In this document: positions 1-10,362 of the stretch, piece after piece
Position numbering within the stretch: the stretch's first letter is position 1
How the letters are laid out: each line of letters begins with the position of its first letter
DNA from: Chloroflexota bacterium
GTDB taxonomy: Bacteria > Chloroflexota > Dormibacteria > Dormibacterales > Dormibacteraceae
Reading direction: 5' to 3'
NCBI GenBank assembly: GCA_005879945.1
Contig: VBHX01000179.1
Span: 1-35,302, forward strand
DNA: 35,302 bases
The notes under the pieces: model-generated
Database searches by the model: none
Told to the model about the DNA's origin: nothing
Seen by the model: the letters and a program-made list of their open reading frames with translations, nothing else
Program-made: the position numbers and the translations under genes

Positions 1-314
1 TCGACCTGGTTGGAGGCGACGACATCCACTTGCTGCTTGACACGCTGTGTAGCGGCGGCCTCCTGCTCGAGGTGGCCGGCGATCCCTCGGATGAGCTGAA
101 GGCCCAGGCGAAAAAGCGCAGCCTGCGTGTGCTGGAGCCGCTGGTCGAGCCTGACGGCCACGTACTCGAGCTGGCGACCGACCTTATTGAGGCCGGCGAC
201 CTGAAGGTGACGGTTGCAGAAACTTTTCCGCTCGAACGCGCTGCCGCGGCTCATGAGCGCCTGGAGCGGGGTGGGGTGAGAGGCAAGCTGGTACTGGAGG
301 TGGGGCATGACTGA
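1..314 (+). CDS. C-terminal part of zinc-type/quinone oxidoreductase-like NADP-dependent dehydrogenase (5' truncated by window edge)
   Basis: Open frame from the window start (..DLVGGDDIHLLLDTLCSGGLLLEVAGDPSDEL.. to ..AAAAHERLERGGVRGKLVLEV), the typical C-terminus of the MDR family; stop at 312-314. Confidence 0.75.
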   Translation, partial: DLVGGDDIHLLLDTLCSGGLLLEVAGDPSDELKAQAKKRSLRVLEPLVEPDGHVLELATDLIEAGDLKVTVAETFPLERAAAAHERLERGGVRGKLVLEVGHD

Positions 315-714
315 CGTCCATGCGCGCAAAGAATCCGCGGCGGTACCGAATGGCGAGCTCGCCGGCGCTAGGCTCACAGTCGAAGCCCTCGAACGCGCCG
401 TGGCCGAACGAACGGTGGACACGGTCGTGCTCGCGCTCGTCGACATGGAAGGACGGCTGGTCGGCAAGCGCCTGACGGGGCGCCACTTTCTCGAATCGAC
501 GGTTCCACACGGAGCGGAATATGAGGGTGACCACCCGCACGTTCCACACTCGATGCGCGCGGCCCGCGACCTCTTTGCCGCGAGCGAAGTTGCCCGCGCT
601 GCGTTCGGCGGTGATGTCGTCGATCACTACGTGCATCGGGCCGACCTCGAGCTGGCCGCCTTCGAGTCGTCGGTCACCGACTGGGAGCGCATCCGTGGCT
701 TCGAGCGGTTGTAG
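307..714 (+). pseudogene. Internally deleted glutamine synthetase / gamma-glutamylpolyamine synthetase-like ORF (N-terminal and C-terminal segments only, catalytic core absent)
   Basis: N-part VDTVVLALVDMEGRLVGKRLTGRHFLE resembles the GS N-terminal beta-grasp start; C-part VPHSMRAARDLFAASEVARAAFGGDVVDHYVHRADLELAAFESSVTDWERIRGFERL resembles the GS C-terminal end. The ATP-binding and catalytic core motifs between them are missing; 135 aa in total with the frame preserved. Confidence 0.75.
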
Positions 715-1464
715 GTGACAGTCGTTGTTGGCATTCCGCTGCGCCCGCTCATCACCAGTGATCTGCCGCCGAAGTTGTCGCTCAACCGCGCCTACTTCGA
801 TGCCATCGAGAGCGCGGGCGCGGTCGCGCTGCCGATCCCGATCGTCCATGACCCGGCGCGGCTTCGTCATCTCTACGAGCTCATCGACGCGCTGCTTCTG
901 CCTGGCGGTGTCGACGTGGAACCCCGTCGCTACGGTGCGGTGGCGCGGGCCGATTGCAATCTCAACGTGGTCCCTGAGCTCGACGAGGTCGAGTTCCGCC
1001 TGGCGGAGTGGGCGATGGCCGACGATCTCCCGCTGCTCGGCATCTGCCGCGGCATCCAGGTCATGAACGTCGCGTGCGGCGGCACCCTCTGGCAGGACGT
1101 GCTGGTGGAGGGCGTCGTGAGCGCGTCGCACGACCAGGAACCAAGAGATGCTCTCGTTCACGAACTGGACGTCACTGCCGGCAGCCGGCTGGCCCGAATC
1201 CTCGGCACCCCTGGGCTGGGGGTCAACAGCCTTCACCACCAGGCGATTCGAGACCTGGGCGATGGCTTGAGCGCGGTCGCGCGCTCATCCGATGGGCTCG
1301 TCGAGGGCATTGAGCTGTCGTCGAATCGGTTCGCGGTGGGCATCCAGTGCCACCCTGAGGAGCTGGTCGGGAAACAAGACTGGGCCGGTCGGCTCTTCGC
1401 AGCCCTGGTCGCGGCCGCCAACCAGCGCCGCGACGCGCATGATCCTGTGGTGAGCGCGAAATGA
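715..1464 (+). CDS. Gamma-glutamyl-gamma-aminobutyrate hydrolase family (peptidase C26, PuuD-like)
   Basis: GTG start directly after the previous stop; class-I amidotransferase motifs LLLPGGVDVEPRRYG, LLGICRGIQVMNVACGGTLWQD, GIQCHPEE. Confidence 0.9.
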   Translation: MTVVVGIPLRPLITSDLPPKLSLNRAYFDAIESAGAVALPIPIVHDPARLRHLYELIDALLLPGGVDVEPRRYGAVARADCNLNVVPELDEVEFRLAEWAMADDLPLLGICRGIQVMNVACGGTLWQDVLVEGVVSASHDQEPRDALVHELDVTAGSRLARILGTPGLGVNSLHHQAIRDLGDGLSAVARSSDGLVEGIELSSNRFAVGIQCHPEELVGKQDWAGRLFAALVAAANQRRDAHDPVVSAK

Positions 1465-2270
1465 GGGTCGCCGTGGCGCAGTTCAGCGCCGGGATGAACA
1501 AGTCCGCCAACCTCGAGCGCGTCACGGAGCTGACTGGCCGCGCGGCGGATGCGGGCGCGCGCGTGGTCGTCTTTCCCGAGGGCGCAATGTGCGACTTCGG
1601 CGCCCCGACGGACGACCTCCATGACTTCGCGGAGCCGCTCGACGGGCGATTCGTGCATACGTTGGCGACCCTCGCGGGCCGGTCGGGGCTCACGATCGTG
1701 GCCGGGATGTTCGAGTCGATTCCCGGGCAGCGGCTCATCTACAACTCAGCGGTTGTTGTGGATCCCGCCAACGGGCTGAGCGGCACGTATCGCAAGCGCC
1801 ATTTGTTCGACGCGTTTGGTGAGATCGAGTCGGAACGCTTCCGGCCCGGAGGCGACGACCCGCTCATGGTCCCGATCGACGACTTCAAGGTCGCCGTGGT
1901 CGTGTGCTACGACATCCGCTTCGCGAGCTTCATCGAACGGGCGGCGGATGCGGGCGCCGAGATGCTGCTGGCGCCGGCCGCGTGGGTTGCGGGTCCTCTG
2001 AAGGAGGAGCACCTCAGCGTCCTCGCGCACGCGCGCGCGCTCGACAACACCATCTACGTGGCGGTCGGTGGGCAGATCGGCCCCAATTACACGGGCAGGA
2101 GCGTGATCGTCGACCCGCTGGGAGCAACCCTTGCCGGCCTGGGCGACGCAGAAGGGATCGCCATCGCCGACGTCACACGCGAGCGCCTGCAGGCAGCTCG
2201 AAAGCGGCTGCCCGTCATCGCCCAGCGGCAAGCCGCGCGCGCCGCAGCTGCCGGTCGCTCGGTGTCGTGA
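1461..2270 (+). CDS. Carbon-nitrogen hydrolase (nitrilase superfamily amidase)
   Basis: Glu-Lys-Cys nitrilase signatures: VVFPEGAMCDFG, YRKRHLFDAFGE, VVVCYDIRF; 4-nt overlap with the upstream gene. Confidence 0.9.
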   Translation: MRVAVAQFSAGMNKSANLERVTELTGRAADAGARVVVFPEGAMCDFGAPTDDLHDFAEPLDGRFVHTLATLAGRSGLTIVAGMFESIPGQRLIYNSAVVVDPANGLSGTYRKRHLFDAFGEIESERFRPGGDDPLMVPIDDFKVAVVVCYDIRFASFIERAADAGAEMLLAPAAWVAGPLKEEHLSVLAHARALDNTIYVAVGGQIGPNYTGRSVIVDPLGATLAGLGDAEGIAIADVTRERLQAARKRLPVIAQRQAARAAAAGRSVS

Positions 2271-4126
2271 TGGGAGCGCTCAAAACGATCAACGCCGTCA
2301 ACCATCCGCTCGAGCCGCTGTCGGCTGAGGAGGTCGCGGCGGCTGCGGCGATCTTGAAGCGAGACCAGGGACTCGCCGCCACCGCTCGTTTCGTCTCCAT
2401 CACGATTCACGAACCGCCGAAAGCGGAGGTGCTGGCGTTCACACCCGACCACAGGATCGATCGCCAGGCGAAGATCGTCATCCGCGAACGCGCAGCCCGA
2501 ACGACGTACGAGGGCATCGTCTCGATCACCAATGACAAGACGCAGAGCTGGAGGGAGCTGCCTGGGGTCCAGCCGTCGATGATGGCCGAGGAGTTTGCCC
2601 TTCTCGAGGAGGCCGTCAAGCAGGATCCTCGGTTCCAGGAGGCCCTATGGAAGCGGGGCATCACTGACATGAGCCTCGTCATGTGCGACGCGTGGTCGAG
2701 CGGCTACAACGGCCCCGAGGACGACCCCGCGAAGGGACGCTTCAGCCTTCCGTATAGCTGGGTCCGGAGCGACCCCGAGGACAACGGCTACGCGCGGCCA
2801 ATCGAAGGGGTGGTAGTCCGCTTCGACCTCGACCGCATGCAGGTGGTAGAGGTGGAAGACCACGGCGTGGTGCCGATTCCCGAGCGCGCCGGCAACTACT
2901 CAGCCGAACGGATCGTAGAGCCGGCCAACTTTCCCCATATCCCGGAGGGCCCGCGAGCCGACGTCAAAGCCCTCGACATTCGTCAGCCGGACGGGCCCAG
3001 CTTCAACATCGAGGGCCACCACGTCGCGTGGCAGAAGTGGGACTTGCGGATCGGCTTCACGCCGCGTGAAGGCCCCGTCCTGCACCTGGTGCAGTACCGC
3101 GATGCCGGCCGGCTGCGTCCTGTCCTCTATCGCGCGTCGCTATCGGAGATGTTCATCCCGTATGGCGACCCGAACCCTACCCATCACCGCAAGAACGTGT
3201 TCGACATGGGTGAGTATGGTGTCGGTCTCAACACCAATAGCCTCGAGCTCGGCTGTGACTGCCTGGGAGAGATCCGGTACTTCGACGGCGTCGTCAACGA
3301 CAACGACGGCAAGGCGCTTGTCCTGCACAACGCCATCTGCGTGCACGAAGAGGACTACGGGATCCTCTGGAAGCACACCGATTCTCGGATCGGAAAGGCA
3401 GAGGTCCGCCGGTCACGGCGTCTGGCGATCTCGTCAATCGCGACCTTCGGCAACTACGAGTACGGGTACTTCTGGTACCTCTACCAGGACGGAACCATTG
3501 AGTACGAGGTGAAGCTCACGGGCATCATCTCGAGCGGGGCCGTCGCGCCCGGCGTGCGGCCCGCCCACGGCGAGCTGGTCGCGCCCGGCGTGTACGGGCC
3601 CAACCACCAGCACTTCTTCAATGTCCGGCTCGACATGATGGTCGATGGAGTCGACAACTCGGTGGACGAGATTCACAGCGAAGCGGTGCCGCCGGGCCCT
3701 GCCAACCCGCACGGCAACGCGTGGGTGAACATCACGACGCCTCTCAACCACGAATCGATCGCCCGCCGGCGCATCGATCCCATGTCGGCGCGCCGCTGGC
3801 GGATCAGCAACCCATCGGTCATCAACCCGCTGGGCGAGCCGGTCGCCTACACACTCATGCCCGGCGACAACGTCCTTCCGTTTTATCAGCCCGGCACTTT
3901 CGCGCTCAAACGGGCCCAATACGCGACGAATCACCTTTGGGTGACCGCGTACGACCCATCACAAATGTTCGCGGCGGGCGACTATCCCAACCAGAACCCG
4001 GGCGGTGCCGGCCTTCCTGCCTACCAGGCCGCGGACCGGTCGCTGGCCAACGCGGACACGGTCGTCTGGTACACGTTCGGAGCGCACCATGTGCCGCGCC
4101 ACTCAGGCCACCACGACCACCACTGA
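2270..4126 (+). CDS. Copper-containing primary amine oxidase (truncated, His-rich C-terminus)
   Basis: TPQ motif NYEYGY, catalytic-base region FDMGEYGVG, LGCDCLGEIRYFD, HEEDYGILWKHTD, HQH copper ligands (NHQHFFNVRLDMMVDG) and third ligand region VWYTFGAHHVPR; TGATG junction with the upstream gene. Confidence 0.95.
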   Translation: MGALKTINAVNHPLEPLSAEEVAAAAAILKRDQGLAATARFVSITIHEPPKAEVLAFTPDHRIDRQAKIVIRERAARTTYEGIVSITNDKTQSWRELPGVQPSMMAEEFALLEEAVKQDPRFQEALWKRGITDMSLVMCDAWSSGYNGPEDDPAKGRFSLPYSWVRSDPEDNGYARPIEGVVVRFDLDRMQVVEVEDHGVVPIPERAGNYSAERIVEPANFPHIPEGPRADVKALDIRQPDGPSFNIEGHHVAWQKWDLRIGFTPREGPVLHLVQYRDAGRLRPVLYRASLSEMFIPYGDPNPTHHRKNVFDMGEYGVGLNTNSLELGCDCLGEIRYFDGVVNDNDGKALVLHNAICVHEEDYGILWKHTDSRIGKAEVRRSRRLAISSIATFGNYEYGYFWYLYQDGTIEYEVKLTGIISSGAVAPGVRPAHGELVAPGVYGPNHQHFFNVRLDMMVDGVDNSVDEIHSEAVPPGPANPHGNAWVNITTPLNHESIARRRIDPMSARRWRISNPSVINPLGEPVAYTLMPGDNVLPFYQPGTFALKRAQYATNHLWVTAYDPSQMFAAGDYPNQNPGGAGLPAYQAADRSLANADTVVWYTFGAHHVPRHSGHHDHH

Positions 4127-6806: not shown

Positions 6807-8229
6807 GGGCCGGATACAGCTCGCGGAAGCGGCGATAACCATCCGCGTACGCCTCCTCCCAGTCCCGCCGCGGCTCGATCACCTCGCGCACGCGCACGCA
6901 CGCCGCCACCGCCTCATGCGAATCACCAAAGACGCCGCCCGCGACACCTCCCAACAGCGCCGCCCCGAATGCTGAGCCCTCCTCCACTGAGGTCAGCTCC
7001 AGGGGCACGCCGAGCGCTGATGCCACGATCGAGAGCCACAGGCGGCTGCGCGCGCCGCCGCCAGACGCCCGACCATCCACGGCACGAACGCCCAGCTCGG
7101 TCAGCAGCTCGACTGAATCACGCAACCCATATGCCACGCCCTCCATCACCGAGCGGGCCATGGCCGCGCGGTCGTGGCGGAGCGAAAGGCCGATGAAAGC
7201 GCCGCGCGCGTCGGGGTCCGCGTGTGGCGTCCGCTCTCCCGCGAGATAAGGCAGGAAGAACAGCCCGTCCGATCCGGGCGCCCAGCTCGCAGCCTCGGCA
7301 TCCAGGTCGGCAAACCGGATCCCCGCGGCGAGCGTGTCGCGGAACCACTGCATCGATCCCGCCGCCGAGAGCATGACGCCCATCGCATGCCATGAGCCCG
7401 GCACCGCGTGGCAGAAGACGTGAACGCGAGCCTGCGGCTCGGCTGCATATGCAGGCAGGGCCGCGAACACCACGCCTGACGTTCCCAGAACCACTGAAAG
7501 CGGGCCTGGGCGATCAACGCCAACCCCAAGGGCGGCCGCAGCCTGATCGCCCGCACCCGCCGCGACGACCACGCCTGCCGCGGTCTGACCGCTGATCTCG
7601 GGTGACTCCAACGCCCGAGGGAGCCACGAGCGCGGAATCTCGAGCGCATCCGTGACCTCGTCGCTCCAGCGGCGGTTCGCGACATCGAACAGCAGCGTGC
7701 CCGAGGCGTCGGCCACGTCGATGGCGTGCTCGCCCGTCAGGCGCAGCCGGACATAGTCCTTGGGCAGGAGGATGCGCGCGATGCGCGAGTAAACATCCGG
7801 CTCGTGATGCCGCAGCCACAGAATTTTCGGAGCGGTGAAACCGGTCAGGGCGCGGTTTCCGGTCAGCTCGATCAAGCGCTCCAGGCCAATTCGTGATTCG
7901 ATCTCCGCGCACTCGGCGCCCGTGCGCTGGTCGTTCCACAGGATCGCCGGCCGCAGCACTCGATCGTGGCCGTCGAGGCAGACCAGCCCGTGCATCTGTC
8001 CCGAGAGCCCGATGCCGCGCACGTCGTCGACGCCCGCCGCTGCCATCGCCTCGAGGGTCCCTTGCGTGGCCTGCCACCAATCTTCTGGGTCCTGCTCAGA
8101 CCAGCCCGGTCGCGGAGTCGAAAGAGGATAGGCCACTTCCGCTTTCGCGATCACCTCGCCCTCAGGCGAGACGGCCACTGTCTTGACGCCGGTCGTCCCT
8201 ACGTCGACACCGATGACGGCCGAGGTCAC
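6715..8229 (-). CDS. xylB: FGGY-family carbohydrate kinase, xylulokinase-like
   Basis: IGVDVGTTGVKTVAVSPEG, GIGLSGQMHGLVCLD, ILWNDQRT, GAGDQAAAALGVG, PYLAGERTPHADPDARG, ASGGGARSRLW; GTG start. Confidence 0.85.
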   Translation of the reverse strand: MTSAVIGVDVGTTGVKTVAVSPEGEVIAKAEVAYPLSTPRPGWSEQDPEDWWQATQGTLEAMAAAGVDDVRGIGLSGQMHGLVCLDGHDRVLRPAILWNDQRTGAECAEIESRIGLERLIELTGNRALTGFTAPKILWLRHHEPDVYSRIARILLPKDYVRLRLTGEHAIDVADASGTLLFDVANRRWSDEVTDALEIPRSWLPRALESPEISGQTAAGVVVAAGAGDQAAAALGVGVDRPGPLSVVLGTSGVVFAALPAYAAEPQARVHVFCHAVPGSWHAMGVMLSAAGSMQWFRDTLAAGIRFADLDAEAASWAPGSDGLFFLPYLAGERTPHADPDARGAFIGLSLRHDRAAMARSVMEGVAYGLRDSVELLTELGVRAVDGRASGGGARSRLWLSIVASALGVPLELTSVEEGSAFGAALLGGVAGGVFGDSHEAVAACVRVREVIEPRRDWEEAYADGYRRFRELYPALRPRRSGSRGRGGRAARGRRVDRSRRSSRA

Positions 8230-8238
8230 GGAGGGCCG

Positions 8239-9246
8239 CTATTCCGCGCCGAGCGCTCTATAGACGATCTCGTACGCCCGGACGGCGTCCTTTCGCGACT
8301 GGGCCTCGCGCAGCGCCACATCATCGATTCGCGCGGCCACCGAATCGATGAAGCGCCACTGCAGAACGCTGCGGCGCACAGCCGCGATCGCGTCTTCTGT
8401 GTAGGGATAGAGGTCGAAGCCGAGGCGCTCGCCGTGGTCACCATATCCGGCGCGGCGCAGCTCGAGCGCCAGCTCCAGCGTTTCCATGAATGCGGTCGCG
8501 CCGACCATGTTGTCGTCATCGAATGTGCCCCAGCCGCTGTTGGCGTGCTGGTGGCCGAGAAGCCCTTCGCCCGCCAGCATCGCCGCGTACTCGGCCAGAT
8601 TCTCGCCGTTCATGAGGAGGTGCTGCCAGTCCATGTTCACCTTTACGTTGTCGATGCCTTGCGCGCGCAGCTTGTGAATCACGTGCAGTGTCATGCCGAT
8701 ATTGCGCATGAGGATCTTCATCGCGGGCTCGGAGTTCTTGTGCTCGAGGAACAGCGTTATGCGGTGTTCCTTGCACCTCTTCGCCGCGGCTCCGATGCCC
8801 TCCACAAGCCATGCCCAGCTCTCGCGGTAGGGGGTCTGGAACGGGTAGTTGTAGCCCTCGATGCCGGGCCAGATGATGAAGTTCGCGTGCAGGCTGCCCG
8901 CCATGTCTGCTGCGGCCAGCGTCCGCCGCACAGCCTCGGCGCGCACCGACGCGTCGGGCGAGCACAGCCCGCCCCGGCCGAAAAGCGGGTCGAGGTGGAG
9001 GCCGGTGGCGACGCAGTAGATCCCATGCCCGCCCAGGGCCTCCTTGATCGCTGCTGCATTCTGCTCGTTGATCTCCTGCGGGTAGTGGAACTCGTAGTCG
9101 TCGATCAGGTCCCCAAGGCCAGCCACCGCCCGCTTCACCTTGTCGACGATGTTTTCCGAGGTCCACTGCGGCTGGTAGCCGATGGGGACGAACCGCGTGA
9201 TCATCGGCCCCAGCGCCCAGATGCCAAGACTGGTCTTCAGCGTCAC
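8239..9246 (-). CDS. TIM-barrel sugar isomerase/epimerase (xylose isomerase-like superfamily)
   Basis: EFHYPQEINEQN, ITLFLEHKNSEP, NVKVNMDWQHLLMNGEN, LGFDLYPYTED; GTG start overlapping the VOC gene stop. Confidence 0.8.
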   Translation of the reverse strand: MTLKTSLGIWALGPMITRFVPIGYQPQWTSENIVDKVKRAVAGLGDLIDDYEFHYPQEINEQNAAAIKEALGGHGIYCVATGLHLDPLFGRGGLCSPDASVRAEAVRRTLAAADMAGSLHANFIIWPGIEGYNYPFQTPYRESWAWLVEGIGAAAKRCKEHRITLFLEHKNSEPAMKILMRNIGMTLHVIHKLRAQGIDNVKVNMDWQHLLMNGENLAEYAAMLAGEGLLGHQHANSGWGTFDDDNMVGATAFMETLELALELRRAGYGDHGERLGFDLYPYTEDAIAAVRRSVLQWRFIDSVAARIDDVALREAQSRKDAVRAYEIVYRALGAE

Positions 9247-9620
9247 CCTCGATAGTCCCCCTCGATCCTCGTGAACTCGATCAGGTTGCCAACCGGGTCG
9301 CGACAGAAAAAGCGCGGCCGGTTGGGGATAGGCGTGTCGTCGAAAGGCTCCAGGCCCGCCGCCTCGAGACGGCGGCGGGTGTCCTCTAGATCGTCGATGT
9401 CGAAGCAGAAGTGACGGCGCGACTCGACGTCCTGCGGGCCCGGGAAGAAGTGGATTTCGAGGCCGTCACCGGCGGCGAACCACAACAGGCCCATGCCCGC
9501 GAGCGTGGATGGGACCGGCTGCTCGGAAAGTCCGAGCACCTCGGCGTAGAACCGCCTCACAGAGGCATCTTCGCCATCGTGGTACGGCGAGGAGACGTGC
9601 TGAAGGCTCCTCAGCTTCAT
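9243..9620 (-). CDS. VOC family (glyoxalase-like) protein
   Basis: MKLRSLQHVSSPYHDGEDASVRRFYAEVLGLSEQP...HFCFDIDDLEDTRRRLEAAG...RFFCRDPVGNLIEFTRIEG. Confidence 0.85.
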   Translation of the reverse strand: MKLRSLQHVSSPYHDGEDASVRRFYAEVLGLSEQPVPSTLAGMGLLWFAAGDGLEIHFFPGPQDVESRRHFCFDIDDLEDTRRRLEAAGLEPFDDTPIPNRPRFFCRDPVGNLIEFTRIEGDYRG

Positions 9621-9633
9621 TCGGTCAAGCCCA

Positions 9634-10362
9634 TCACGATGACCGCCGCGGGGCAAGAGGCTCGACGCCCAGGAAACGGCGCTGCGCATCGATGTTGCCG
9701 ATCAGCTCCTTGGCGGTGGTCTCGGCCGCGATTCTGCCGGCGACCATGACCAACTGCCGCTCCGCGAGTGCGGTCGCAACCCCGAGGTTCTGCTCGACGA
9801 CCAGCAGGCCCACGCCCTGACCGGCCAGCGTGCTGATGGTGTCGATCACGCTCTCGACGATGTTCGGCGCCAAGCCCTCGGAAGGCTCGTCCATGATCAG
9901 CAGCTTCGGGTTGGTCAGCAGCGCGCGCCCGATCGCGAGCATCTGCTGCTCGCCTCCTGACAGCTGCGCAGCGCCGGTGCTCTTGCGCGCGGCGAGCCGA
10001 GGGAAGGTCTCGTAGACGCGTTTGGGGGTCCAGCCGCCGTTGCCGCGGCGGGGAATGATCTGCAGGTGCTCATCGGTTGAGAGCGACGGAAAGAGGCGGC
10101 GCCCTTGCGGGACGAAGCCCAGGCCTTCCCGCGCGATCCGGTACGGCGGCTTGCCCATCAGCTCCTGACCGCGAAACCGAACCGAACCTCTTGCCGAGGT
10201 GAGCATGCCCATGATCACCTGGCACAGGGTCGACTTGCCCATGCCGTTGCGGCCGATGATCGCGACCGGCCTCTCATCGACCGTGAAGGCGACATCCTGC
10301 AGGACGTGAGCGCGTCCATAGAAGGCGTTGAGGTCTTTGACCTCGAGTACAGACTCGCTCAC
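9634..10362 (-). CDS. livF: ABC transporter ATP-binding protein, LivF-like (HAAT family)
   Basis: IGRNGMGKSTLCQVIMG Walker A, LSGGEQQMLAIGRAL signature, LLIMDEPSEGLAPNIV Walker B; LivF-type short ATPase. Start taken at the GTG at 10362 (ORF extends to a TTG at 10377). Confidence 0.9.
   Translation of the reverse strand: MSESVLEVKDLNAFYGRAHVLQDVAFTVDERPVAIIGRNGMGKSTLCQVIMGMLTSARGSVRFRGQELMGKPPYRIAREGLGFVPQGRRLFPSLSTDEHLQIIPRRGNGGWTPKRVYETFPRLAARKSTGAAQLSGGEQQMLAIGRALLTNPKLLIMDEPSEGLAPNIVESVIDTISTLAGQGVGLLVVEQNLGVATALAERQLVMVAGRIAAETTAKELIGNIDAQRRFLGVEPLAPRRSS

Follow-up and report, generated by a model that had tools for sequence, protein, structure and literature searches.

How does a gene for a glutamine synthetase (GS)-like enzyme come to be represented by its two ends, with the reading frame still intact? 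The question is raised by a 135-residue open reading frame at positions 307–714 (+) of the window, by which we mean the whole stretch of 35,302 nucleotides analysed here, contig C159 of a MAG (G000) that comprises 236 contigs and is 87% complete. An earlier note made from the letters alone left three explanations standing, a deletion pseudogene, a residual mini-protein and an assembly collapse, and we have weighed these against related genomes and against the rest of the assembly.

Structure of the remnant and its junction

Full-length orthologs are found in two members of the same family, one of 464 aa in Dormibacteraeota MAG S89_Bin_3 (G027, contig C126) and one of 463 aa in Chloroflexi bacterium 13_1_40CM_65_17 (G001, contig C68). 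Against these the frame comprises the first 71 and the last 64 residues of a GS-like gene fused in frame, with overall identities of 82% and 74% respectively; residues 1–71 and 67–135 align with the opposite ends of one full-length gene in each relative, at 82% and 81% in G027 and at 73% and 74% in G001. Residues 75–128 also match positions 288–341 of the 344 in the Pfam profile PF00120 (E=5.7e-7, above the curated cut-off), and the frame belongs to the GS superfamily by homology of these retained parts. It lacks a complete catalytic domain, as the profile match is confined to those positions and 329 codons are gone, the same count against both references. The note had read a GS N-terminus joined to a GS C-terminus in one intact frame, with a catalytic barrel of about 300 residues lost in frame and a junction near 517–522. 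The alignment to full-length homologs that it had proposed bears this out, both halves matching the termini of intact genes, and places the junction between GAA (517–519) and TAT (520–522), in the protein HGAE/YEG.

The barrel is the part of GS that binds metal, ATP and glutamate, and with it gone the product of the remnant cannot catalyse. Whichever explanation holds, the frame should not be annotated as glutamine synthetase. Relocation of the barrel elsewhere in the genome was considered and rejected, as a search of the genome's own assembly found no copy of it, the next best GS being 49% identical.

Table 1. Features at the start of the window (positions in the window)
Feature	Position	Strand	Basis
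Quinone-oxidoreductase-like (QOR) gene, 3' end	3..314	+	Open to TGA 312–314; stop overlaps GS start; full gene on C100 (3403–4293) and in G001
GS-like N-terminal remnant, residues 1–71	307..519	+	82% to G027, 73% to G001; dN/dS 0.18–0.20
Deletion junction, 329 codons (987 nt) missing	519..520	+	Alignment to G027 and G001 genes
GS-like C-terminal remnant, residues 72–135 with stop	520..714	+	81–84% to G027, 74–76% to G001; PF00120 end; dN/dS 0.05–0.10
PuuD-like class I amidotransferase (Peptidase_C26), intact	715..1464	+	PF07722 E=2.4e-53; GICRG and QCHPEE motifs; GTG start abuts GS stop
Carbon-nitrogen hydrolase (nitrilase family), intact	1461..2270	+	PF00795 E=5.6e-46
Primary-amine oxidase, intact	2270..4126	+	NF008559 845.7 bits, cut-off 651; start overlaps preceding stop

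The 9-nt direct repeat GTTCCACAC at 502–510 and 541–549, which the note had described as bracketing the junction, does not survive as a footprint of the deletion. Both copies are still there, each coding for VPH of the conserved flank (VPHGAE; HVPH), and 57% of dinucleotide shuffles of the frame contain a direct repeat 9 nt long or longer. A deletion mediated by this repeat is therefore rejected, and a deletion at 519/520 would have occurred with almost no homology at the junction. Relative to the orthologs the retained ends have dN/dS values of 0.05–0.20 and contain no stops, the intact genes compared with each other giving 0.07–0.17; ends constrained like intact genes imply that the deletion is recent, or that it is not real.

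Operon context in the window and in relatives

The surrounding genes are tightly packed. The QOR stop (312–314) overlaps the GS start at 307, the GS stop (712–714) abuts the GTG of the hydrolase at 715, in agreement with the earlier placing of the remnant directly before a PuuD-like hydrolase, and there are overlaps of 4 nt between the PuuD-like and nitrilase genes and of 1 nt between the latter and the amine oxidase gene. Both the hydrolase (dN/dS 0.29) and the nitrilase (0.15) are constrained. The order on contig C68 of G001 is an aminotransferase gene on the opposite strand, aldehyde dehydrogenase (ALDH), QOR, GS, PuuD-like hydrolase and nitrilase, and it is kept in the window genome, where it is divided among three contigs: C129 and C100 meet at G001 C68:72822–72824, and C100 overlaps with its end the beginning of C159 (the window). 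An intact ancestral gene thus occupies the same place in both relatives, within ALDH-QOR-GS-PuuD-nitrilase in G001 and ALDH-QOR-GS in G027. The G027 genome lacks a PuuD-like gene at E<=1e-20 despite its intact GS, and what follows GS on its contig C126 is other sequence, including an ORF that resembles an HNH-type endonuclease on reading its sequence. On contig C201 of a further genome (G034) a close PuuD ortholog directly follows the nitrilase gene with no GS between them, so that the arrangement can exist without this GS.

A second haplotype, and losses elsewhere in the genome

Two observations made here are new: a second, larger in-frame deletion of the GS-like gene on contig C100, and a damaged GS gene and permease gene on contig C178. 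The last 430 bases of C100 (3983–4412) are approximately 97% identical to window positions 1–678, and within them C100 jumps from window position 351 to 601, with a further 249 nt (83 codons) gone in frame and a 2-nt overlap at the junction. This deletion differs from that in the window, although it affects the same gene, and it removes most of the N-terminal part that the window remnant retains. The junctions lie 520 bp (window) and 78 bp (C100, at 4334/4335) from their contig ends. Differences between the two haplotypes within the remnant, three nonsynonymous and one synonymous over 41 codons, are too few to show relaxed selection after the deletion. The difference of about 3% between the overlapping contig ends shows that the MAG is a mixture of strains; the ends of contigs C24 and C45 overlap likewise (131 bp, 95%). 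One bin with two haplotypes that carry two deletions of one gene reflects either a population that is losing the gene or two local errors at contig ends.

To gauge how common such losses are, approximately 634 kb of sampled stretches of the window genome were compared with approximately 770 kb of G001 and 260 kb of G002. Clean net deletions found by blastn number 10 in the window genome and 1 in G001, those in the control pair being 1 in G002 and 4 in G001. Several of these ten, affecting whole genes or intergenic sequence, are ordinary differences in gene content, and deletions in the window genome other than that of the GS-like gene are mostly out of frame. At the protein level internal losses affect 2 of 128 orthologs in the window genome and 1 of 132 in the reverse direction, in a test that missed the window GS itself. 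As these rates are low and similar both ways, and as several of the ten DNA deletions are gene-content differences, we reject an assembly broken genome-wide: it is not damaged everywhere, and within the stretches set against G001 few other genes have lost internal sequence.

The search of the window genome returned five further GS-like genes. The closest paralog (49%), on C178, lies in a permease-amidotransferase-GS-SDR cluster whose gene set resembles that of the Streptomyces glnA4 ethanolamine cluster (PMC6529630). Here 113 bp are missing relative to G001 where the GS gene (about 7412–8656) runs into the next SDR gene, a loss that takes roughly the final 30 residues of the GS and the beginning of the SDR; the permease gene (about 9343–9877) lacks some 330 residues from its interior through an out-of-frame deletion. 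The latter loss measures 989 bp relative to G001, near the 987 bp of the window, which is probably a coincidence. As C178 was picked for being a GS gene and not for damage, the way it was chosen does not account for its two lesions, although the numbers are small. The two GS genes on C129 lie within a 6.7-kb alignment to G001 that has no large break, and the frames on C196 and C61 are of the usual length.

Weighing the explanations

The three alternatives of the earlier note all stay, although they can now be ranked. We think it fairly probable that the remnant is a deletion allele of recent origin and without function, lying in a compact operon for amine catabolism in a population of mixed strains, given that both relatives keep an intact ortholog in the same order of genes and that the neighbours are intact and overlap or abut; against this the MAG is fragmented, and an in-frame outcome has a one in three chance of arising by luck. 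The serious rival, which we regard as possible but less than even in likelihood, is an artefact of local assembly or of the library: the gene would in reality be complete, and two contig ends would have been joined wrongly, or built from chimeric reads, in a mixture of related strains. Consistent with an artefact, C159 and C100, whose haplotypes share about 97% identity, show different collapses of the one gene, each close to a contig end, and the clean net deletions relative to G001 run 10:1 against the window genome, though several of these are gene-content differences. Moreover, a review describes local assembly errors in which the sequence has not even one supporting read, notably in IDBA-UD assemblies (PMC7111523; the assembler of this MAG may differ), so that an artefact is compatible with the missing long repeats at the junctions. 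Speaking against an artefact, neither the window junction nor the C100 junction has a repeat of k-mer length, as an ordinary k-mer collapse would need; the frame is kept in both collapses (1/9 by chance), the barrel is absent elsewhere in the assembly and the protein-level losses elsewhere are rare.

It seems to us very unlikely that the remnant works as a mini-protein, say by using its retained terminal segments to modulate intact enzymes of the GS family. Frame, start and stop are kept, the retained segments are constrained relative to the orthologs, and an AlphaFold2 model predicts C-terminal helices with good local confidence; however, the constraint is accounted for by ancestry as a full enzyme, the model reaches a pTM of 0.45 and leaves the junction disordered, and searching by its fold gave no PDB match at E<=0.001, with weak partial matches to GS only. 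The short form is absent from all the others of the 42 family genomes; short frames on C15 of G027 and C49 of G024 sit at contig ends, and a conserved mini-gene in relatives is rejected. A scan of the genome contigs gave 80 loci; a full GS frame was taken from 16 of these, and none of the 16 departs from ordinary length. The collapse on C100 costs the gene 83 more codons, among them most of the N-terminal part kept in the window, and the few differences between the haplotypes run three to one towards nonsynonymous changes. We would also give very little weight to the idea that, within one species, GS-like genes linked to hydrolases repeatedly lose their catalytic core with the frame preserved, with a leftover mini-protein or translational spacer keeping the operon coupled.

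If the favoured deletion allele is real and the assembly right, comparison with the relatives would have a deletion with almost no junction homology taking out the central 329 codons, the remnant remaining in frame because little time has passed, in a population with at least two haplotypes that carry different deletions of the GS-like gene. In genes so closely packed a frame-shifted remnant could lower downstream translation and an in-frame one need not, and the deletion may therefore keep translation running through the operon into the hydrolase. The two deletion alleles and the damaged second hydrolase-linked GS cluster would then suggest a relaxed need for gamma-glutamylation in this lineage. 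Were the deletion real, it would document that an uncultured soil lineage has recently lost a step in which amines are gamma-glutamylated, two deletion alleles being present in a single population; an artefact would serve as a warning that short 'GS-like' proteins in MAG annotations can arise through assembly.

The enzyme lost was probably of gamma-glutamylamine-synthetase type. The earlier proposal that a gamma-glutamylpolyamine synthetase belongs here is upheld as regards its place before the PuuD-like hydrolase, whereas a polyamine substrate is not established: on the gamma-glutamylputrescine synthetase (PuuA) profile NF045547, with a cut-off of 650, the remnant scores 14.2 bits and the intact G027 ortholog 176.7. 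GlnA3 and GlnA4 of Streptomyces are GS-like enzymes that glutamylate amines (PMC5403932, PMC6529630). Like PuuA and these two, the full-length orthologs are GS-superfamily ligases encoded beside a PuuD-type hydrolase, and genes for an aldehyde dehydrogenase and an aminotransferase lie near; the orthologs differ from PuuA in falling far under its profile cut-off, and the window copy differs from all three in lacking the catalytic barrel. It resembles bacterial internal-deletion pseudogenes in that the ends are kept and the middle is lost, relatives have intact orthologs and the loss is recent, and departs from the usual ones in that the frame is kept, two deletion alleles occur in one bin, and the case is known from assembled contigs alone.
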